The translations under genes were made by a program, and so were the position numbers. Shown piece by piece: positions 8,279 to 60,765 of a stretch of 64,000 nt of DNA (its first letter is position 1; the number at the start of each line of letters is the position of its first letter). A model generated the notes under the pieces. That model was not told the origin of the DNA, did no database searches, and worked only from the letters and a program-made list of their open reading frames with translations. The stretch spans positions 7,626,001 to 7,690,000 of the forward strand of contig NZ_JACHMX010000001.1 of the NCBI RefSeq assembly GCF_014205155.1, read 5' to 3'. Source of the stretch: Amycolatopsis umgeniensis. GTDB lineage: Bacteria > Actinomycetota > Actinomycetes > Mycobacteriales > Pseudonocardiaceae.

Positions 8279-10224
<1,946 letters not shown>

Positions 10225-10228
<4 letters not shown>

Positions 10229-11151
10229 ACAACCCGCCCGAACTCGAGACGGCGCGGCTGCGGCTGCGCGCGCTGGAGGAGTCCGACACCGAGGCGATCA
10301 TCGAGCTCTTCGCCGACCCGGCGCTGAGCGCGCATTTCGCGACCCCGCTGACCGATCCGGACCTTGTCCGCGCGATGGTCGGCAGGCGGCTGGCGTACAG
10401 CGGACCCGCCGGGATGGGGCACTGGGCGATCGAACGCGACGGCGAGGTGATCGGCCTCGCGCATCTGCGGCCGTCGGAAGAGCTGCCCGGCGGGGTGCCG
10501 GAGATCGGTTACTACCTGGCGCGTGCGCACGGTGGGCAGGGTTTGGCGACCGAGGCCGCGAAGGCCCTGCTGGCGCACGGGCTCGTCGGGCTCGGCCTGT
10601 CCTCGGTGTGGGCGCTGGTCGGCGAGTCCAATGTGGCCAGTCTGAACCTGGTGCGGCGCTTGGGTTTCCTGGACGTCGGCAGCGGTGACCATTACGGCAG
10701 CGGGCCGCACCGGGTGCTCGTCGCGCTGCCGTCGGAGCACGGGCGGGCCCACCACATCGAACTGTGGGTGCCGGATCTCGCGCGCGCCGAGGAAAGCTGG
10801 GGCTGGCTGCTCGGCGAACTCGGCTGGCGGGAATTCCAGCGCTGGCCCGACGGCGTCAGCTGGAAACACGGCGCGACCTACCTCGTCGTCGAGCGTTCTC
10901 CCGCGCTCAGCGGGGAAAAGCACGAGCGCACCGCGCCGGGCCTGAACCATCTCGCACTGCACGTCGATACCCGCGATCGGGTGAACGAACTGGCTTCGAA
11001 GGCCGTCGAACACGGCTGGTCGCCCCTGTTCGCGGAGAAGTATCCGTATGCGGGCGGTGATCACCACTACGCCGCCTACCTCGAAAACACCGATGGCTTC
11101 GAAGTGGAATTGGTAGCCCTACCGGGGAGTGACGTCACCCGGCTGGGTTAA
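10225..11151 (+). CDS. GNAT acetyltransferase fused to a VOC/glyoxalase domain
   Basis: This 308-residue protein has two domains. Residues 1 to about 172 are a RimJ/RimL-type GNAT acetyltransferase ([15 protein letters not shown] at the start, then [17 protein letters not shown] for acetyl-CoA binding and [15 protein letters not shown]). Residues about 178-300 form a VOC (glyoxalase/bleomycin-resistance-like) half starting [17 protein letters not shown] and containing [18 protein letters not shown] and GFEVELVA. The two run on without a frame break, so the fusion is real in this sequence. It is the last gene of the shikimate operon, overlapping aroQ by 4 bp. A role in drug or metabolite modification is plausible, but the substrate is unknown. 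Confidence 0.85.
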
Positions 11152-53034: not shown

Positions 53035-53988
53035 TCACGAGGTCTGTTCACCGAAGACCTTGCACGTCGCCGGGTCCCCGTTCAGCGCGGCGGTGGCCAA
53101 GAGGACGGCGCCCGCGGTCCAGGTGGTGCGCTCGTCGGGCCAGAACTCCTTGTCCGCGAACTGGTAGCCGGTCCAGTACGAGCCGTCTTCATGCCGTAGG
53201 CGCGCTATGCACTCGAGGAGTGCGGCGGCCCGCGTGCGGTCTCCGCGAACGGCGAGTGTCAGCGCGAGTTCGGCCGTCTCGCCGCCGGTGACCCAAGGCT
53301 CGTGATCGACACAGCGCACCCCCAAGCCAGGTTCGACGAACCGGTCCCAGCCGGTGTCGATCCGTTCCGTCGCGCTGGAACCGGTCAGGACAGAGCCCAG
53401 GACCGGGTAGTACCAGTCCATCGCGTGCGGTTTCGCCGTGAACAGGTGGGGCTGCTCGACCAGCGCCGTGCGGAGGCGCTTAGCCGAGGCCGCCCATCGC
53501 GGACGCGCCTGGCCGACCAGGGACGCGAGGCCGATCGCTTGCGTCAACGCGTGGTGGATACTGCTGCACCCGGCGACCAGGCGGACACCGGGATCGGTCC
53601 GCCAGGCGATGGCGCCGGACGGTTGCTGCCGTCGAACGATCGCATCGAGGGCACGGTCCACTGTGGGCCACAGGCGTTCCACGAACGAGTGGTCGCCGTT
53701 CGCCAGGAAGTGGTGTCGTACACCGACGGCAACGTAGGCCGTGAAGTTGGTGTCCATAGTGGACAGCGTGGCTTCGCCGTCGCGGTACTCGGCCGCCCAG
53801 GAGCCATCGGGCCGTTGGTTGCGAGCGAGCCAGTCGTAGGCGGCTTCGGCCTCCGCGTGCATCCCGGCGACGTCGAGGCCCATCGCGGCTTCGATGTGGT
53901 TCCACGGGTCGAGATGACCGTTCGCCTGCCAGGGGATCCCGCCGTCCGGTCGCTGCACGGCGGCGATCGTGGCCGCGGTGGCCTTCAC
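53035..53988 (-). CDS. Squalene-cyclase/prenyltransferase-fold protein
   Basis: This 317-residue protein has an alpha/alpha-toroid fold as in squalene-hopene cyclases and prenyltransferase beta subunits. Four QW-like repeats are visible (QRPDGGIPW, NQRPDGSWA, RQQPSGAIAW, HEDGSYW). It lacks the DxDD motif of squalene cyclases, so it is probably not a terpene cyclase. Homologues are often annotated prenyltransferase without evidence. It is the last gene of the caspase-GT4-methyltransferase operon; the GTG overlaps the methyltransferase stop as GTGA. A carbohydrate-lyase or glycan-binding role is equally possible. Confidence 0.8.
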   Translation of the reverse strand: MKATAATIAAVQRPDGGIPWQANGHLDPWNHIEAAMGLDVAGMHAEAEAAYDWLARNQRPDGSWAAEYRDGEATLSTMDTNFTAYVAVGVRHHFLANGDHSFVERLWPTVDRALDAIVRRQQPSGAIAWRTDPGVRLVAGCSSIHHALTQAIGLASLVGQARPRWAASAKRLRTALVEQPHLFTAKPHAMDWYYPVLGSVLTGSSATERIDTGWDRFVEPGLGVRCVDHEPWVTGGETAELALTLAVRGDRTRAAALLECIARLRHEDGSYWTGYQFADKEFWPDERTTWTAGAVLLATAALNGDPATCKVFGEQTS

Positions 53989-54692
53989 GATTTGCGGGCG
54001 TAGACGACGAGGCTCTTGCCGAGCACCGGGTTCAACACGCGTTCGGCGAATCTGACCGGACGCGGACCTCGCATGATGTCCCACACCAGGAATCGGTGGT
54101 AAAGCTCGCAAAACCGGTGATCCGTCTCGGGTCCGACCGCGCATTTCAGCCACCAGTAGGGCGAATGCAACGCGTGCGCGTGATGGCTGGACAAGGGGCG
54201 CAGCCCTGCTTCCCGTAGACGGCCGAAAAGCTCGCCGCGTCGGTAGATCCGGATGTGCCCGCCCTCGACAGCGTGGTACTCGTCGGAGAGCAGCCAGCAG
54301 ATCCTCTCCGGCCACCAGCGTGGCACGGTCGCGGCCATCAGGCCATCGGCTGCCAGCACCCGGCTCACCTCGGCGAGGACGACACGGTCGGCGTGGATGT
54401 GTTCGAGGGTCTCGGCCACGATCACCCGGGTGAAGGCGCCGTCCGGGAACGGAAGCCGGAGGGCATCCGCGCGGACGGCCGTCGCGGACGCCGAAGCGGG
54501 CGCCTCCCCGGCCTCGGCGATGCTGGAGAACCTGTCCCGCACGTGCTTCAGCGCGGTGTCGTCGAGGTCCGCGGCGACCACGTCCGCGCCGCGTTTGTAG
54601 GCCTCGTAGGCATGTCGCCCTTCTCCGCAGCCGAGGTCGAGGACTCGATCGCCGGGGCCGACGGGGAACCGGTCGAAGTCGACGGTCAGCAC
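53985..54692 (-). CDS. Class I SAM-dependent methyltransferase
   Basis: This 235-residue methyltransferase has the SAM motif VLDLGCGEGRHAYEAYKRG near residue 20, an acidic DLDDTAL loop, and the post-motif AETLEHIH typical of the Methyltransf_11 group. The GTG of VLTVDF was chosen: it overlaps the glycosyltransferase stop by 7 bp and gives a normal-length domain. The C-terminal 60 residues are aromatic- and arginine-rich, suggesting membrane or lipid contact. The target is unknown; a glycan or glycolipid is plausible from the adjacent GT4 gene. Confidence 0.88.
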   Translation of the reverse strand: MLTVDFDRFPVGPGDRVLDLGCGEGRHAYEAYKRGADVVAADLDDTALKHVRDRFSSIAEAGEAPASASATAVRADALRLPFPDGAFTRVIVAETLEHIHADRVVLAEVSRVLAADGLMAATVPRWWPERICWLLSDEYHAVEGGHIRIYRRGELFGRLREAGLRPLSSHHAHALHSPYWWLKCAVGPETDHRFCELYHRFLVWDIMRGPRPVRFAERVLNPVLGKSLVVYARKS

Positions 54693-55900
54693 TCGGTCCC
54701 CTCTCGTCCAAGAATCCGCCGGTAGTGGTCCATGGTCTGTTCGGCAGTCCGCCGCCAGCTCAGGGTCGCCGCCGCGGCAAGACTTCGCTCCGAGAGGTCG
54801 GCACGTCGTCGCACATCGCCGAGGAGTGAGTTGATCGCGTCCGCCAGGGCGCCGGGATCGCCGGGCGGCACCAGGACTCCGGCGTCCCCGACGACTTCGG
54901 GCAGCGCGCCCGCCGTCGTCGCCACCACGGGCGTCCCGCAGGCCATCGCTTCCGCCGCGGGCAACGAGAAACCTTCGAAGAGCGAGGGAACGCACACGAT
55001 CTCGGCCGAACAGAGAAGCTCCGCCAGGTTGACGTCCGACAGGCCGCTGACGAACCGCACGTTCGCGTCGGGGCCGAGGTTCATCAGTGCTCGTTCGGCA
55101 GGCCCGTCCGGTTTCGGCTTACCCACCACGACCAGTTCGCCGTCGATCTTCGCCCACGCGGTGAGCAGCATGTCGAGGCCCTTGAGCGGTTCGTCCGCGC
55201 TGGCCGTGGTGACGACTCTGCCGGGCACCCGTGCGATCTCGGGGCGGGGGTGGAAGACCCGCGTGTCGGCCGCGAGCGGTACGACCCGGATCCGGTGGTG
55301 GGGTACGCGCATTTCCCGGGTGATCGCCTCACGCGAGGCGTGGGAGACCGTGAGCGCGGGCAGCCGTCGAGCGACGCGGTGCTGCATGGACACGAAGCCG
55401 TACCATCGCTCGACCCGGTCCGCTTCCGGACCGGTGACCGTGGCGAGTTTCAGCTCGCGGTCCACCGCGATGGGATGGTGGATGGTCGCGATCGTCGGGA
55501 GTCCACAGTGGAGTGTTCCGTAGCCGAGCCCTTGATTGTCGTGCACGACGTCGAACTCACGCCGGCGTTTCGCGAGATGCCGGGCGGCGCGCAGGGAGAA
55601 CGCCAACGGCTCGGGAAAACCGCCGCGGCGCATACCGAGGAATTCCACCCAAGCGGGCAGGTCGCGCAACTCCGACAGCCTTGGGGTGCGGAACGGGTTC
55701 GGTTCGGCGAACAGATCCAGCCCCGGCAGCTTCGTCAGCCGCACACCGGCGTCGACCTCCGGGTAGGGCGGCCCGGCCAGCACTTCGACCCGGTGGCCCA
55801 GTCCGGCGAGCTCGCGGCTCAGATGCCGGATGTAGACGCCTTGCCCGCCGGAACGAGGGTTTCCCCGGTAGCTCAGCAGCGCGATCCGCAGGGAGCTCAC
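54686..55900 (-). CDS. GT4-family glycosyltransferase
   Basis: This 404-residue retaining glycosyltransferase has the GT-B fold. The N-terminal domain has SGGQGVYIRHLSREL; the C-terminal nucleotide-sugar domain has SLFEGFSLPAAEAMACGTPVV, the E-x7-E motif of family GT4, and an ASADEPLKGLDMLL acceptor-side segment. The start GTG overlaps the caspase gene stop by 4 bp, so it is translated directly after the caspase-NTPase-FHA protein. The donor and acceptor are unknown. One TCCACWGTGGA motif lies inside. Confidence 0.9.
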   Translation of the reverse strand: MSSLRIALLSYRGNPRSGGQGVYIRHLSRELAGLGHRVEVLAGPPYPEVDAGVRLTKLPGLDLFAEPNPFRTPRLSELRDLPAWVEFLGMRRGGFPEPLAFSLRAARHLAKRRREFDVVHDNQGLGYGTLHCGLPTIATIHHPIAVDRELKLATVTGPEADRVERWYGFVSMQHRVARRLPALTVSHASREAITREMRVPHHRIRVVPLAADTRVFHPRPEIARVPGRVVTTASADEPLKGLDMLLTAWAKIDGELVVVGKPKPDGPAERALMNLGPDANVRFVSGLSDVNLAELLCSAEIVCVPSLFEGFSLPAAEAMACGTPVVATTAGALPEVVGDAGVLVPPGDPGALADAINSLLGDVRRRADLSERSLAAAATLSWRRTAEQTMDHYRRILGREGTEC

Positions 55901-58239
55901 CACTCGTTCTCCGGAGTGGGCGGGGTCGTCCTCGCCACCCAAGTCTCGTACCAGGTCTTGCAGCGCACCGTGATCCGATGGGTCTCTCCGAGCTCCCGCT
56001 CCGCCCGCCGAGCCCACGCCGCCCAGTTTTCCCGGTTCTCCACCGGAATCCCGGACACGCGCCGCTCCACCGAGTTGAGCGCGTCCTCGTGCAGGCCCGC
56101 GAGCCACCGGAACTCGGCTTCGTTGGTGGCCGCGTACGCCTGTTCCAAGGTCGGCTCCTCGTCTCCGGACGGCGGTTCCACGTCCGAGGTCGCGTCCGCC
56201 AGCCGGGCGTGCAGGCGGGGCGTCACTTCGGGCGCGGGGCCGGTCCACAGCACGGTTTCGGTCGGCAGACCCGCTTGTGTGCGCCGGACCGCGGTGCGGA
56301 GACCGGCGAGGATGTCCCGAACGTGCACCGTTCTTTCCGGGCCGCCGCTCGCAGCGCTCGCCTTGGTCAGGATCGAGATCGGGATGGGGCCGCGGTCGGC
56401 CGCCAGGTGCAGCAGGTCCAGCAGGACCGCCCGCGCCGGACGGGGTGAGGGCAGCGCGCCGGTGTCCTCATCGGCCTCCGGCCATTTCTCCTCCTGGCCG
56501 ACGCTGATGAAGGTGGCCGTCGAGTCGCCGAGCCGGATCACGTCGCGATGCGCCAGTTCGGCGTTGAGGATTCGCCGTTTGTTGACGAAGGTGCCGTTGG
56601 CGGAATCGAGGTCGGTCAGCCACGCGGTCGTCCCGTCCCAGCGGATTTCGCAGTGCACGCGGGAAACGCGCGAATCGGCGAGCGGCAGGGTGGCGCGGCG
56701 GCTGCGGCCGAGCGTCGTGAATCCGTAGGAGAGTTCGTGGTGGACGGGAGCCCGGCCGGGGACGTCGAGGATCAGCGTCGCGGGGGTGAGTCTCGGTGAA
56801 GTCGGCGAGTCGCTTCCTCGCTGAGCTGGGACGTCGCGCGCCGGCCGGGGCGCGGGCTTGCCGGGCCGGTCCGCTGGCCGGATCACCGGATGCGTGACCC
56901 GCAAGGGGATCAGGCGCACCACGGTCGCGGACGGGAGGTTGTCCGGTGTCCGCGTCGCCACCACCGTCTTGACCCACGACAACTCCGGATCGGTGGACAG
57001 GTTCCGCAGGAGGCCGGTCACACGGGAGGTGACGTCGGGGTCTAGATCGTCCAGGCCGTCCATCGCGATCCGCACCGGGCTGTTCGTCCACTGTGGAGTG
57101 ACTGTCCGCAGCGGGCCGAGGATCGCCAGATCGAAAGCGCTTGCGCCGCTCCGTGCGCTGTCATCGAGAGTGCTCAGGAAGGCCTCGCGGGACTCGGCGA
57201 ACCACGGGACCGTGTGCTGGAGCTGGCGGGCCAGTTCCCGTGCGATCTGTTCCGCCGTCTGCCCGCGGGCGGCGAACAGCACGGCGTGCAGGAAGTCCGG
57301 CGGGACATAGGATCCCGCCACCGACGGGCGGGCGAGCGCGGCCAGCATGGCCGATTTGCCGGAGTCGGCCTCCCCGGCGATCGCGACCAGGCGGGCCCCG
57401 GTGAGCAGATGCCCGACAGTCTCGCCGAGTTCCGGCTTCTGCTTGTAGTTCGCTGTCAGCCGTTCGATGTCCGGGGCCGCGGGATTGCCTGCCAGCGGCG
57501 AATGGCGCCACGCGGGGGAGGCGTTGAGCGCGAGCCACAGCCCCTGATCGGCGCCGATCACCTCGCGGGTGCCGTCGAAACCGAGATGGACGGCGGTCTG
57601 CGCCGGGCACAAGCCGGTGATGACCCGTTTGAGATCCGCGCAGCGGACGTGCTCGCCGAAACTCCGGTGCCCCGAACGCAGCACGGTGACCAGCGACCGG
57701 CTGAAGCAGCCGTTGGCGGCGACGCGGTCGTCGGACGCCGTCAGCAGGTCGAACCGCCGTCCGGCCTCGCCGACGATCCGCAGCCAGCGCCTGCCCGCCT
57801 GGACGGCGCCGATTCCCGCGTGGCAGGTGTCGAGCAGGATGACCAGACCGTCGAGCGTGGAGTAGCGGCCGAGGAGCTCCTTGATCCGCTGGGCGAACAG
57901 GAACGACTTCCGGCTGTCCACCGGCAGGCTGGTTTCCTTGGTGAGGAAGTAGAAGTCGTCGTCGGCGTATTCGCCGTGCCCGACGAGCGAAAGGAAAAGT
58001 GTCGCCTCGTCTTCGGCCGCGCGCTCGAACGCCTCGGCCAGCGCGTCGTCGAGTTCGACCATCGTCGGGTCGATGAGCAGGTCGCGGCCGTCCGCGAGCG
58101 CGGGGACACAGCCGCCGATGCCGGGATCCCGCAACGCCGCCGAGACTTCGTGGCCGACGTCGGGAAGGAACGAAAGCAAGTTCAACGAATCGCATTGCGA
58201 CGCGACGACCAACGATCTCCGCTCTCCCACGGAGATCAC
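55897..58239 (-). CDS. Caspase-like protease fused to P-loop NTPase and FHA domain
   Basis: This 780-residue protein has four parts. Residues about 5-230 form a caspase-like C14 domain with the His-Cys dyad intact: His88 in SLVGHGE and Cys139 in LLDTCHAG. Residues about 270-450 form a P-loop NTPase with Walker A GEADSGKS (289-296) and Walker B IAMDGLDDLD (391-400), most like STAND/NACHT-type ATPases. Residues about 487-580 form an FHA domain (TLGRSRRATLPL, SRVSRVHCEI, DSANGTFVN), which binds phosphothreonine. The C-terminal 180 residues contain a single TPR-like helical pair. It leads an operon with GT4, methyltransferase and cyclase-fold genes. Architecture suggests regulated proteolysis on a phospho-signal, perhaps in conflict or cell death. 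Confidence 0.85.
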   Translation of the reverse strand: MISVGERRSLVVASQCDSLNLLSFLPDVGHEVSAALRDPGIGGCVPALADGRDLLIDPTMVELDDALAEAFERAAEDEATLFLSLVGHGEYADDDFYFLTKETSLPVDSRKSFLFAQRIKELLGRYSTLDGLVILLDTCHAGIGAVQAGRRWLRIVGEAGRRFDLLTASDDRVAANGCFSRSLVTVLRSGHRSFGEHVRCADLKRVITGLCPAQTAVHLGFDGTREVIGADQGLWLALNASPAWRHSPLAGNPAAPDIERLTANYKQKPELGETVGHLLTGARLVAIAGEADSGKSAMLAALARPSVAGSYVPPDFLHAVLFAARGQTAEQIARELARQLQHTVPWFAESREAFLSTLDDSARSGASAFDLAILGPLRTVTPQWTNSPVRIAMDGLDDLDPDVTSRVTGLLRNLSTDPELSWVKTVVATRTPDNLPSATVVRLIPLRVTHPVIRPADRPGKPAPRPARDVPAQRGSDSPTSPRLTPATLILDVPGRAPVHHELSYGFTTLGRSRRATLPLADSRVSRVHCEIRWDGTTAWLTDLDSANGTFVNKRRILNAELAHRDVIRLGDSTATFISVGQEEKWPEADEDTGALPSPRPARAVLLDLLHLAADRGPIPISILTKASAASGGPERTVHVRDILAGLRTAVRRTQAGLPTETVLWTGPAPEVTPRLHARLADATSDVEPPSGDEEPTLEQAYAATNEAEFRWLAGLHEDALNSVERRVSGIPVENRENWAAWARRAERELGETHRITVRCKTWYETWVARTTPPTPENEW

Positions 58240-58276
58240 TTTGTCTCATCGGCGGTGCACCGGCAAGCACTTCGAC

Positions 58277-58282
58277 GATACT
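58277..58282 (+). promoter_or_regulatory. -10 hexamer, leaderless promoter of the alpha/beta hydrolase
   Basis: GATACT lies exactly 7 nt before the ATG. The whole divergent promoter region shared with the caspase operon is only 50 bp. Confidence 0.4.
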
Positions 58283-58289
58283 GTGCGCC

Positions 58290-59198
58290 ATGGCTCGGAT
58301 CGTTCTGGTGCACGGCATCGCCCAGGAACAGAAGTCCGCGGACACCCTCGAGGCGGAATGGCTGCCGAGTCTCGCCGGCGGGATCCGGCTCGCGGGCGAT
58401 CCCGCGCTGGCCGACGCCCTGTGGCGCGACGCCCGGCCCGGCGATGCGCGGATGGCCTTTTACGGCGACCTCTTCCTCCGCGACGGGCAGCAAGGCGGCA
58501 TGGACGAACTGACCGCCGACGAGTGGTGGCTCGCCGAAGCGCTGGCGGCGGAATGGCTCCGGAACGCGGCTTCACGGTCTTCGCGCGAAAGCGAGCGGAA
58601 CCTGGCGCGGGCCGATCTGGCCCACCTCGGCGGTGCGTCCGAGGAGTACCAAGGTGTGCGCGCGGCGGCCCGCCCGGTGCTGAACGCGCTGGTCCGGCTG
58701 CGGCCGTTCGCGAGGCTCGGGGTGGCGTTCGCCGAACGCGTGGTGGTCAAGGCGCTCAAGCAGGTCACGCTGTACCTCACCGACGAGACGATCAGGAAAC
58801 GCGTCCAGGACCGCGTCGCCGAGCACATCGGGCCGGAGACCGAGGCGATCATCGGGCATTCGCTCGGTTCCGTCGTCGCCTACGAAGCCGCCCATCTGCA
58901 CGGCCGTCCGCTGCCTTTGCTGCTCACCCTTGGCTCGCCGCTGGGCCTGCGCACGGTGGTCTACGAGCGAACCCGCCCGCAGCCACCGTCCGTCCCGCCC
59001 GGTGTCGCGCGCTGGGTGAACCTGGCCGACCGGGACGATCTCGTCGCCGCGAAGCCGGACCTCGGCGAGATGTTCCCCGGCGCGGACGGCGTCCTCGACA
59101 GCGGCTACACGGTCGACAACGGGGCGAAACCGCATGAGGCGGCGTTCTACCTGGCCAAACGCCGGACCGGCGAAGTCCTTTCCGCGGCACTGGGCTAG
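58290..59198 (+). CDS. Alpha/beta hydrolase (GHSLGS type) divergent from the caspase gene
   Basis: This 302-residue protein has an alpha/beta hydrolase fold with a helical insert. The N-terminal RIVLVHGIAQE carries the oxyanion region, Ser191 is the nucleophile in IIGHSLGSVVAYEA, an aspartate near 248-250 (ADRDD) and His282 (KPHEAAF) complete a likely triad. No signal peptide is present, so it acts inside the cell, perhaps as a lipase or esterase. Similar hydrolases occur as effectors beside caspases and NTPases in actinobacterial conflict loci (recollection, not searched). The stop overlaps the convergent desaturase gene. Confidence 0.82.
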   Translation: MARIVLVHGIAQEQKSADTLEAEWLPSLAGGIRLAGDPALADALWRDARPGDARMAFYGDLFLRDGQQGGMDELTADEWWLAEALAAEWLRNAASRSSRESERNLARADLAHLGGASEEYQGVRAAARPVLNALVRLRPFARLGVAFAERVVVKALKQVTLYLTDETIRKRVQDRVAEHIGPETEAIIGHSLGSVVAYEAAHLHGRPLPLLLTLGSPLGLRTVVYERTRPQPPSVPPGVARWVNLADRDDLVAAKPDLGEMFPGADGVLDSGYTVDNGAKPHEAAFYLAKRRTGEVLSAALG

Positions 59199-60064
59199 AC
59201 GCTGACCGCCCTGACCTCCGCGGGCTGCCAGCCCGGCGGGCCGAACACGTAGCCGAGTTTGTCCCGCCAAGACCCGGCCGCGCGGACGTCGCGCAGGATC
59301 GACCCGTACTCGTGGAAGCCGACCTTGAGCAGGTTGTGGGACTCGACGTTCTTGGTCAGCCCGTAGGTCGGCCGCTTGCCCTCGGGTACGAAACTGCCGA
59401 ACAGCCGGTCCCAGATGATCAGGATGCCGCCGTAGTTCGCGTCCAGGTACTCCTTGTCGCTGCCGTGGTGCACACGATGGTGTGAAGGCGTGTTGAACAC
59501 GTACTCGAACCAGCGCGGCAGCTTCCGGATCTTCTCGGTGTGCACGAAGAACTGGTAGACGAGGTCGATCGACAGACCGGTCAGGATCATCCACGGCGGG
59601 ATGCCGGCGAAGGCCAGGATCGACCAGAACGGCAGCTGGAAGTACGGGGTCCACTTCTGCCGCAGCGCCGTGGAGAAGTTGTAGTGCTCACTCGAATGGT
59701 GGACCTGGTGGCCCGCCCACATGATCCGGACGCGATGGCTCGCCCGGTGGTAGGCGTAGAAGACGATCTCCTGGCCCAGCAGCATGAGGACCCAGGTCCA
59801 CCAGTCGTGCGGGCTGAACTTCACCGGCGCCAGTTCGTAGAGCGCGGCGAAGACGAACAGCATCGCGATGCGGAAGACGCCGTTGATCACGACCGCCACC
59901 GCGCCCATGGACATGCTGGTCCTGGTGTCCTTGACGCTGTAGCCGATGACGTTGTCGTCGTGGCCCAGCACGTGCAGCGCGAGGATCTCGATCGCGACGA
60001 ACAGCAGGAACACCGGTGTCGCCATCAGTACCGGGTCACTCAGATGGACAAGGAAATCCGCCAC
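59195..60064 (-). CDS. Sterol desaturase / fatty acid hydroxylase family membrane protein
   Basis: This 289-residue di-iron membrane enzyme has the three histidine motifs of the superfamily: YHRASH, HQVHHSS and HHRVHHG. Four to five hydrophobic helices surround them. Members hydroxylate or desaturate sterols, carotenoids or alkyl lipids; the substrate is not evident. GAAGAGG lies 5 nt before the GTG start. It is divergent from a TetR-family gene, with TTACC/GGTAA operator repeats between them, so the regulator probably represses it. It ends tail-to-tail with the alpha/beta hydrolase, sharing three bases. Confidence 0.88.
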   Translation of the reverse strand: MADFLVHLSDPVLMATPVFLLFVAIEILALHVLGHDDNVIGYSVKDTRTSMSMGAVAVVINGVFRIAMLFVFAALYELAPVKFSPHDWWTWVLMLLGQEIVFYAYHRASHRVRIMWAGHQVHHSSEHYNFSTALRQKWTPYFQLPFWSILAFAGIPPWMILTGLSIDLVYQFFVHTEKIRKLPRWFEYVFNTPSHHRVHHGSDKEYLDANYGGILIIWDRLFGSFVPEGKRPTYGLTKNVESHNLLKVGFHEYGSILRDVRAAGSWRDKLGYVFGPPGWQPAEVRAVSV

Positions 60065-60108
60065 CGCACCGCACCTCTTCCCGTCTCGCCGTCGAGATCT
60101 GACCTTGA

Positions 60109-60143
60109 GGTAACTTACCCTAGGGTCATTTACCTCAGGGTAA
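60109..60143. promoter_or_regulatory. TetR-type operator array with TTACC/GGTAA repeats
   Basis: GGTAACTTACC (60109-60119) and TTACCTCAGGGTAA (60130-60143) are two perfect inverted repeats of the same half site, separated by CTAGGGTCAT. The second overlaps the -10 hexamer of the TetR gene; the first is about 45 bp from the desaturase start. Confidence 0.7.
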
Positions 60144-60146
60144 GAT
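60141..60146 (+). promoter_or_regulatory. -10 hexamer, leaderless promoter of the TetR gene
   Basis: TAAGAT lies exactly 7 nt before the GTG and overlaps the operator half site, as expected for autorepression. Confidence 0.55.
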
Positions 60147-60153
60147 AACCGCC

Positions 60154-60765
60154 GTGACAGAAGCAAGGGCCGTCGGCACGAAGGGCATGCCCCGCGAAGA
60201 GCGGGAGACGCTGATCGTGCGCGCCGGGACGGAGGAGTTCGGCAAGAACGGGTACGCCGGGGCGTCGATGGTGGAGATCGCCCGCCGGGTCGGTGTCACG
60301 AAACCCTTGCTGTACCAGTACTTCGGTTCGAAGGACGGGCTGTATCTCGCATGCCTGCACCGGGCGGGGGACAGGCTGACCGAAGGGGTCGCCGAGACGA
60401 TGGCGGCGGAGGGCGAGCCGCCCGAGCGGATGCCGCTCGCGGTGCTCTCGGCCATCTTCCAGACGTTCGACAACGACCGGTACGCGTGGAAGCTGCTTCG
60501 CGACCCAACGGTGCCCTCGACCGGCGAGATCGCCGGCGTCGCCGTCGACTACCGGTTCCGGCTCGACGGGTTCGCGCTGATCGGCGCCGCCCAGCTGATG
60601 CACTCGCGTGGCCTGGACGACGAACGCGACATCGAGGCGATCGCCCAGGTGTGGACCGGGGTGGTCGACTCCCTGATCAGCTGGTGGATCGACCAGCCGG
60701 ATCAGGACGCCGCGGCGATGACCGAGCGGTGTTCGCGGATCATGCGGAACCTGTTCGGCTGGTGA
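60154..60765 (+). CDS. TetR-family transcriptional regulator
   Basis: This 203-residue repressor has a typical N-terminal helix-turn-helix (about residues 20-65: TLIVRAGTEEFGKNGYAG, MVEIARRVGVTKPLLYQYFGSKD) and a ligand-binding domain. It is divergent from the sterol-desaturase-like gene and has a palindromic operator array in its promoter, so it probably represses both genes and is released by a lipid-like ligand. The GTG start has no ribosome site and a -10 hexamer 7 nt upstream. Its last 26 bp overlap the convergent NUDIX gene. Confidence 0.92.
   Translation: MTEARAVGTKGMPREERETLIVRAGTEEFGKNGYAGASMVEIARRVGVTKPLLYQYFGSKDGLYLACLHRAGDRLTEGVAETMAAEGEPPERMPLAVLSAIFQTFDNDRYAWKLLRDPTVPSTGEIAGVAVDYRFRLDGFALIGAAQLMHSRGLDDERDIEAIAQVWTGVVDSLISWWIDQPDQDAAAMTERCSRIMRNLFGW

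Follow-up and report, generated by a model that had tools for sequence, protein, structure and literature searches.

Described systems and the Amycolatopsis umgeniensis locus

In the MoxR-vWA conflict systems of bacteria, caspase domains always come with a neighbouring alpha/beta hydrolase, and FHA and glycosyltransferase domains appear sporadically in such systems (PMC7159879). For STAND conflict systems, GT4 domains were put forward as predicted effectors (PMC8195603), and canu, a group of caspase-nuclease anti-phage loci, provides an earlier case in which a caspase of bacteria activates its partner enzyme (PMC12799240). In nontuberculous mycobacteria, the cluster meT1-mmpH-pmeT3-manT encodes the alpha-1,4-endomannosidase MmpH and the alpha-1,4-mannosyltransferase ManT of the 3-O-methylmannose polysaccharide (MMP), together with pMeT3 and MeT1, and the MMP pathway was proposed to act on fatty-acid metabolism (PMC9883506; structures 7QSJ, 7QSG and 6G7D). 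We analysed a stretch of 64,000 nucleotides (hereafter the window) of the Amycolatopsis umgeniensis genome, a single contig of 9.2 Mb (NCBI RefSeq assembly GCF_014205155.1, contig NZ_JACHMX010000001.1, positions 7,626,001 to 7,690,000), in which the genes for a caspase-NTPase-FHA protein and an alpha/beta hydrolase (the pair) stand next to genes for a GT4 glycosyltransferase, a methyltransferase and a toroid-fold protein (the trio; Table 1). We tentatively interpret the locus as a caspase/alpha-beta-hydrolase conflict pair, for death or defence, with an NTPase switch, held as a cassette with a modified MMP module.

The MoxR-vWA/VMAP and GAP1 conflict systems likewise have a caspase-superfamily protease and a neighbouring alpha/beta hydrolase gene, whereas the caspase protein here also contains a fused P-loop NTPase, with TPRs added in relatives, and has the MMP-type trio attached (PMC7159879); neither MoxR, vWA and VMAP nor an MBL-fold nuclease was found among the six window proteins scanned with Pfam. 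As in the STAND/GT4 systems, a GT4 gene adjoins an NTPase-effector gene, but there GT4 is fused to the STAND NTPases, and here it is a ManT-type enzyme encoded on its own within a metabolic trio (PMC8195603). STAND NTPases with an effector and a repeat sensor differ from the window copy, which lacks the C-terminal TPR sensor that most relatives have. Like canu, the locus pairs a MALT1-like caspase with another enzyme, and TPRs occur in some canu loci; however, the partner there is an MBL-fold nuclease and here an alpha/beta hydrolase, whose putative cleavage by the caspase is modelled on canu (PMC12799240). Caspase-NTPase-WD40 loci (L092, L098) have a homologous hydrolase directly beside the caspase-NTPase gene, but carry WD40 or other sensors instead of TPRs, and no trio was seen in them. 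The trio shares with the mycobacterial MMP cluster the order ManT-MeT3-MmpH and most active-site residues, but no MeT1 was found in the genome, Asp50 of MmpH is replaced by Asn and the operon starts with the caspase gene (PMC9883506). No description of the five-gene cassette was found in open-access papers, in agreement with the first-pass annotation of this DNA, made from the sequence alone, which did not recognise the combination as described.

The caspase/hydrolase pair

The best supported conclusion, to which conserved pairing and conserved residues point, is that the caspase and the hydrolase would be paired effectors under an NTPase switch. Caspase homologues were tabulated for 37 loci: the window, 24 other Amycolatopsis, 11 from two other genera of the family and one Streptomyces-type. 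The table leaves out L090 and L091, in which the caspase is lost (both are in the 28-locus residue set and the 19-locus context set below), and L143, at a contig end; L047, a C-terminal remnant only, is in neither the 37-locus nor the 28-locus table, and the loci L048-L067, which duplicate many other genomes, are counted once in both. The hydrolase gene adjoins the caspase gene in 37/37 of these loci. Since 12 of them were found via the hydrolase and 25 by the caspase alone, the pairing is fairly judged on the 25 Amycolatopsis loci; a genus-wide caspase search was positive in 25 of 80 Amycolatopsis genomes, with the hydrolase beside the caspase in all 25. The co-occurrence test proposed in the first-pass annotation was run as a second scan, which searched genome contigs with nothing but the caspase alignment and has many species in common with the genus-wide search. 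The hydrolase adjoined the caspase in 20/20 loci and the complete trio was present in 13/20, so the outcome that the first-pass annotation named as refuting its reading did not occur. These counts fit the claim of one system with the hydrolase as a second effector; its function in defence or death is what we infer. The catalytic residues follow the same pattern, since His88 and Cys139 of the caspase are kept in all 37 tabulated loci and Ser191 and His282 of the hydrolase are invariant in 50/50 aligned proteins. The GHSLGS motif and the placement of the hydrolase gene 50 bp away on the opposite strand, both reported at first pass, hold as well.

Starting from the hydrolase, strong relatives (E <= 1e-58) are present in 21 of 249 genomes of the family, 18 of which have a toroid gene or remnant within 7 kb, while G006, G019 and G021 are without any toroid match. 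Among 14 more distant hydrolase loci (L092-L105, E-value of 1e-25 or better), an adjoining caspase-type gene is clear in seven (L092, L093, L094, L095, L096, L098, L101) and weakly matched in three (L097, L100, L105); the simple open reading frame (ORF) caller behind this comparison, and behind the MeT1 clustering and flanking-context comparisons below, is crude. A second caspase-NTPase-type gene with an adjoining homologous hydrolase lies about 440 kb away in the A. umgeniensis genome (L107, G000:C1:8119000-8138000, ~8282-10986), and no GT4, methyltransferase or toroid match was found in the 19 kb examined there. The Streptomyces-type loci L142 and L143 encode caspase-NTPase-TPR proteins with the hydrolase gene downstream and convergent, without a trio match.

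The hydrolase fold resembles lipases and thioesterases (no solved structure was matched by sequence at an E-value of 0.1), and in most Amycolatopsis loci read the cassette lies at one chromosomal place, beside genes that are presumably uvrC-whiA. Both observations would suit metabolic or developmental control, in which the two proteins would steer the turnover of lipids or MMP during hyphal growth, without a part in defence or death. We consider this distinctly unlikely, as relatives of the hydrolase adjoin caspase-NTPase-WD40 genes, a kind typical of conflict systems (e.g. L092, L098), and as presence is patchy, with 25/80 Amycolatopsis genomes positive for the caspase and 2/392 Streptomyces-type genomes for the hydrolase at an E-value of 1e-50.

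The trio as a modified MMP module

The GT4-methyltransferase-toroid trio is, by homology, an MMP-type module, common in actinobacteria without the caspase. The toroid-fold protein matches Mycolicibacterium hassiacum MmpH (PDB 7QSJ, E = 1.1e-92) and GT4 matches ManT over residues 3-399 (PDB 7QSG, E = 5e-112), with the positions of ManT His142, Lys240, Glu313 and Glu321 kept. The methyltransferase, for which there is no MMP-specific solved relative to match, has the same position as the methyltransferase of caspase-free clusters and 52-62% identity to it. Of the first-pass description of GT4, methyltransferase and cyclase-fold genes, the genes and their overlaps stand (caspase/GT4 4 bp, GT4/methyltransferase 7 bp, methyltransferase/toroid 4 bp), but the presumed cyclase is an MmpH-type (alpha/alpha)6-barrel glycoside hydrolase homologue, and the proposed tailoring of a surface glycan gives way to the MMP pathway. 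Other identities were rejected: a prenyltransferase or squalene/terpene cyclase, whose Pfam and NCBIfam matches are below cut-off against 1e-92 for MmpH; a PF20706 conflict effector for GT4 (47 bits, cut-off 26), to which Glyco_trans_1_4 (107 bits) and ManT are far closer; and a MADS component for the methyltransferase, whose mad2 match (64 bits) is partial and reflects a generic methyltransferase fold. Among the 120 MmpH relatives listed (P0086-P0205) of 5250 scored at an E-value of 1e-5, prenyltransferase and squalene oxidase repeat protein are frequent names; the former is misleading and hides the MMP link.

Of the genomes sampled, 84 of 197 at class level and 72 of 249 at family level have the toroid gene. 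The caspase-free loci are a sample, to which the family contributed 20 of its 53 toroid-only genomes and the class sample 14 of 83 others. The order GT4-methyltransferase-toroid is the same in 33 of these 34 loci, L119 having no GT4 match. A fourth gene, which matches MeT1 (PDB 6G7D, E = 2.9e-89), lies near the trio in 18/20 (ORF clustering) and 13/14 (within about 8 kb) of them; at L108 and L128, two of the three loci at which it was first missed, MeT1 is just outside the stretch called or read. By contrast, MeT1 was found at an E-value of 1e-20 in none of 31 linked or pair-bearing genomes, with 4/4 controls positive, and at none of the 42 loci read (repeats included; three of the loci without caspase).

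A second difference concerns the active site of MmpH, in which Asp50Ala drastically cuts the activity of the M. hassiacum enzyme (PMC9883506). The window homologue keeps Asp47 and Glu262, and Asp50 is replaced by Asn. At this position, 28 linked loci have Asn (25), Cys (2) or Asp (1), compared with Asp (32) or Asn (2) in the 34 caspase-free loci; the linked set shows no variation at Asp47, Trp49, Asn101, Met215, Tyr219, Glu262, Glu265 and Trp315, and the positions of Phe102 and Thr163 vary in both sets. Linked and free Pseudonocardiaceae trios separate in trees (support of 0.92 for GT4, 0.999 for the methyltransferase and 1.0 for the toroid), which leave out the 14 loci of other families and include some genomes twice. 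L135 and L141 are the caspase-free MMP clusters with Asn at the Asp50 position, so the change can arise without a caspase.

Linkage of pair and trio

Genome comparison indicates that pair and trio are a real cassette. The flanking genes of 19 loci fall into six groups that have nothing in common at 50% identity; the whole cassette, in the same order, is found in five of these groups, and the sixth (L091) has the trio with caspase and hydrolase remnants. The five genes therefore keep together at different chromosomal places. The full trio is present in 18/18 FHA-less Pseudonocardiaceae loci and in 0/1 Streptomyces-type locus. In the Amycolatopsis clade whose caspase proteins carry the FHA domain, it is complete in 8 of 18 loci, gone or reduced to remnants (L039, L043) in 9 of the 17 decidable ones and undecidable in L035, where the contig ends after the caspase gene; an obligatory trio is thus not supported. 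According to the tree of flanking genes, with no regain assumed and two weak nodes (0.635, 0.824), this clade has lost the trio on about six occasions.

All five ORFs are uninterrupted, and median ratios of nonsynonymous to synonymous substitution rates (dN/dS) of 0.10-0.37 by gene or domain in the FHA clade indicate purifying selection, for which reason the locus is not a chance assembly. Medians for pairs including the window copy and for other pairs are 0.135 and 0.111 for the caspase, 0.33 and 0.34 for the NTPase, 0.31 and 0.37 for FHA, 0.20 and 0.18 for the hydrolase, and 0.16-0.20 and 0.10-0.18 for the trio genes.

The linkage could also be that of two neighbours, if the pair had once landed upstream of an ordinary MMP operon and both halves had since been passed on side by side, with no functional interplay. 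Each half is found without the other, the trio was lost several times while the pair was kept, and a single joining event would be enough to explain the linked trios, which make up one clade among the Pseudonocardiaceae sampled. Nevertheless, we regard such an association as somewhat unlikely, given that the five genes recur with unchanged order in five contexts, remnants being left in a sixth (L091), that the trio is retained in all 18 FHA-less loci of the family, and that the missing MeT1 and the changed Asp50 coincide with linkage. From this linkage and the co-occurring changes, we infer instead that the methylmannan module is functionally tied to the pair, as an input or as a guarded process.

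FHA insertion and TPR loss in the caspase-NTPase protein

In the window protein, Pfam recognises Peptidase_C14 (28.6 bits, cut-off 21.4) and FHA (69.3 bits, cut-off 20.7), while the NTPase region stays below the cut-offs of AAA_16 (27.5 bits, cut-off 32.6) and NACHT (16.6 bits, cut-off 26.7); a relative, P0045, reaches 34.6 bits for NACHT. The structures matched by the model (mean predicted local distance difference test of 85.2) include FHA domains from mycobacteria and human MALT1, a paracaspase, in fold-search lists that hold mostly single-domain matches and come from the whole model, not from the NTPase region alone. With an intact ORF, the 780-residue protein joining the His88/Cys139 dyad, Walker motifs and FHA is as first described; its database entry (P0001) starts three codons later and has 777 residues. 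Against the EACC1-associated caspase profile NF047832 it scores 40.9 bits, under the curated cut-off of 140. With 167 bits, the third caspase gene of the genome (L106, G000:C1:2317000-2336000, 8464-10647, reverse strand) exceeds the cut-off of 140 set for NCBIfam caspase_w_EACC1.

The FHA domain is present in 18 of the 37 loci, all in one Amycolatopsis clade, and its slot in most FHA-less relatives is a short linker of about 20-100 residues, a few having zinc ribbons or transmembrane-like stretches; on these alignments, FHA is a late insert in that clade. Phosphothreonine recognition by FHA, proposed at first pass as a gate of proteolysis, is accordingly not supported as a general gate.

The window protein is also without the C-terminal TPR region of about 200 residues that most close relatives keep. 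Compared with L070 and L041, the window copy is short by about 600-650 bp before GT4 and has a short unrelated tail instead; the region is truncated also in L043 and L069. Short forms of 781-793 residues are known in other species and are scattered in the trees of three protein segments, which speaks against a single inherited deletion and points to repeated loss or recombination. In the 999-residue relative P0071, a LytR-CpsA-Psr domain (735-905) takes the place of the TPRs, by gene fusion or misassembly. The missing sensor raises the possibility that the window copy is a decaying remnant, its caspase left inert or uncontrolled. The truncations in L043 and L069, the nearest relative L034, which keeps the TPRs and lacks the trio, and a slightly higher dN/dS of the region beside the lost TPRs in window pairs (0.37 vs 0.30) would agree with decay. 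However, frame and catalytic residues are intact, the caspase domain, compared with that of the nearest relative, has a dN/dS of about 0.08 (0.018/0.237; a weak test, since the timing of TPR loss is not fixed), and similar 781-793-residue forms exist elsewhere, two of which, P0007 (with P0090) and P0009 (with P0087), may adjoin toroid genes. We therefore think decay improbable and take the window copy as a short form of the cassette.

Possible function

Several results weigh against a conflict pair tied to methylmannan. No caspase or hydrolase was detected near the 34 sampled toroid loci, and the pair is without an intact trio at nine FHA-clade and two Streptomyces-type loci, so the halves are separable. 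Linked L046 keeps Asp50 and two free loci have Asn, which may in any case leave MmpH some activity. As the linked trio is one clade, the changes in it are few events and not many, and Asp50Asn, probably one inherited event, counts once and not 25 times. Of the distant hydrolase loci, L099 and L103 have caspase neighbours only at an E-value of about 0.002, L102 has one by eye only and L104 none. Walker A is degenerate by alignment in 8/37 loci, none of them in the FHA clade, which speaks as well against ATP binding as the general gate suggested at first pass, and dN/dS is raised beside the lost TPRs, as given above. At an E-value of 0.01, neither caspase nor hydrolase has a profile match in PADLOC-DB 2.0.0.

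If the conflict reading is right, ManT and the putative MeT3 would make a short 3-O-methylmannan without a 1-O-methyl cap, which the MmpH variant might bind or trim slowly. The NTPase-TPR part would read a change in the methylmannan, or in something that methylmannan binds, and the activated caspase would cleave cell proteins, possibly also its hydrolase partner, for which lipid or acyl esters are the candidate substrates. Within the FHA clade, the input could have moved partly to a phosphothreonine protein, whereby the trio would have become dispensable; in the window copy, where the TPRs are gone, FHA would be the only recognisable sensor left. This clade suggests that the input can be moved.

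A more specific version, which we put forward as speculative and unlikely as a whole, is a suicide or defence system with the methylmannan oligosaccharide as guarded molecule or internal signal: the cap would have been lost and the endomannosidase altered to hold or meter the methylmannoside, the caspase-NTPase-TPR protein and its lipase-like partner would fire when the glycan changes, and FHA would be a natural swap of trigger from glycan to phosphoprotein.

What sets off many of the predicted caspase systems of bacteria is not known. Here the attached genes come from a pathway with solved structures and assays, and a possible input, short 3-O-methylmannosides, can therefore be named and tested. 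In this respect, the cassette adds to the caspase conflict systems a form whose candidate trigger can be named, and possible cell-suicide machinery would be linked to a testable sugar. The FHA clade can serve as a natural experiment: its caspase protein had gained a phosphopeptide-binding domain, and the glycan genes disappeared about six times in it.

Feature coordinates and neighbouring genes

Table 1. Features of the locus, in positions of the window.
Feature	Positions	Strand	Basis
Alpha/beta hydrolase, 302 residues, caspase partner; nucleophile S191 in GHSLGS, invariant H282, D247/D250	58290..59198	+	
Divergent intergenic region, 50 bp, between hydrolase and caspase genes; putative shared promoter region	58240..58289	.	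Arrangement recurs in Pseudonocardiaceae relatives
Caspase-NTPase-FHA protein, 780 residues, GTG start, TPR-less short form	55897..58239	-	
Caspase domain, residues 1-240, H88/C139	57520..58239	-	Pfam; dyad conservation; MALT1-like fold of model
P-loop NTPase region, residues 241-445, Walker A GEADSGKS, STAND/NACHT-like	56905..57519	-	Sub-threshold AAA_16/NACHT; model
FHA domain, residues 508-571, late insertion in one clade	56527..56718	-	Pfam; mycobacterial FHA structures
C-terminal helical region, residues 600-770; precedes TPRs in relatives, TPRs missing in window copy	55930..56442	-	
GT4, homologue of M. hassiacum ManT (alpha-1,4-mannosyltransferase)	54686..55900	-	PDB 7QSG match
Class I S-adenosylmethionine-dependent methyltransferase, position of pMeT3 (putative MMP 3-O-methyltransferase)	53985..54692	-	Pfam Methyltransf_11; gene position
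Toroid-fold MmpH homologue (MMP alpha-1,4-endomannosidase family), Asp50 to Asn30	53035..53988	-	PDB 7QSJ match; residue table

The neighbours of the locus are, presumably, uvrC, rapZ, yvcK and whiA. A gene of the fatty-acid hydroxylase family (59195-60166, reverse strand), with a weak NCBIfam match to OlsE, has a stop codon that overlaps the hydrolase stop codon by 4 bp. It was rejected as a part of the cassette, having no match beside L046, L059 and L061-L067; the gene is present at the FHA-clade loci and at L045 and L060.

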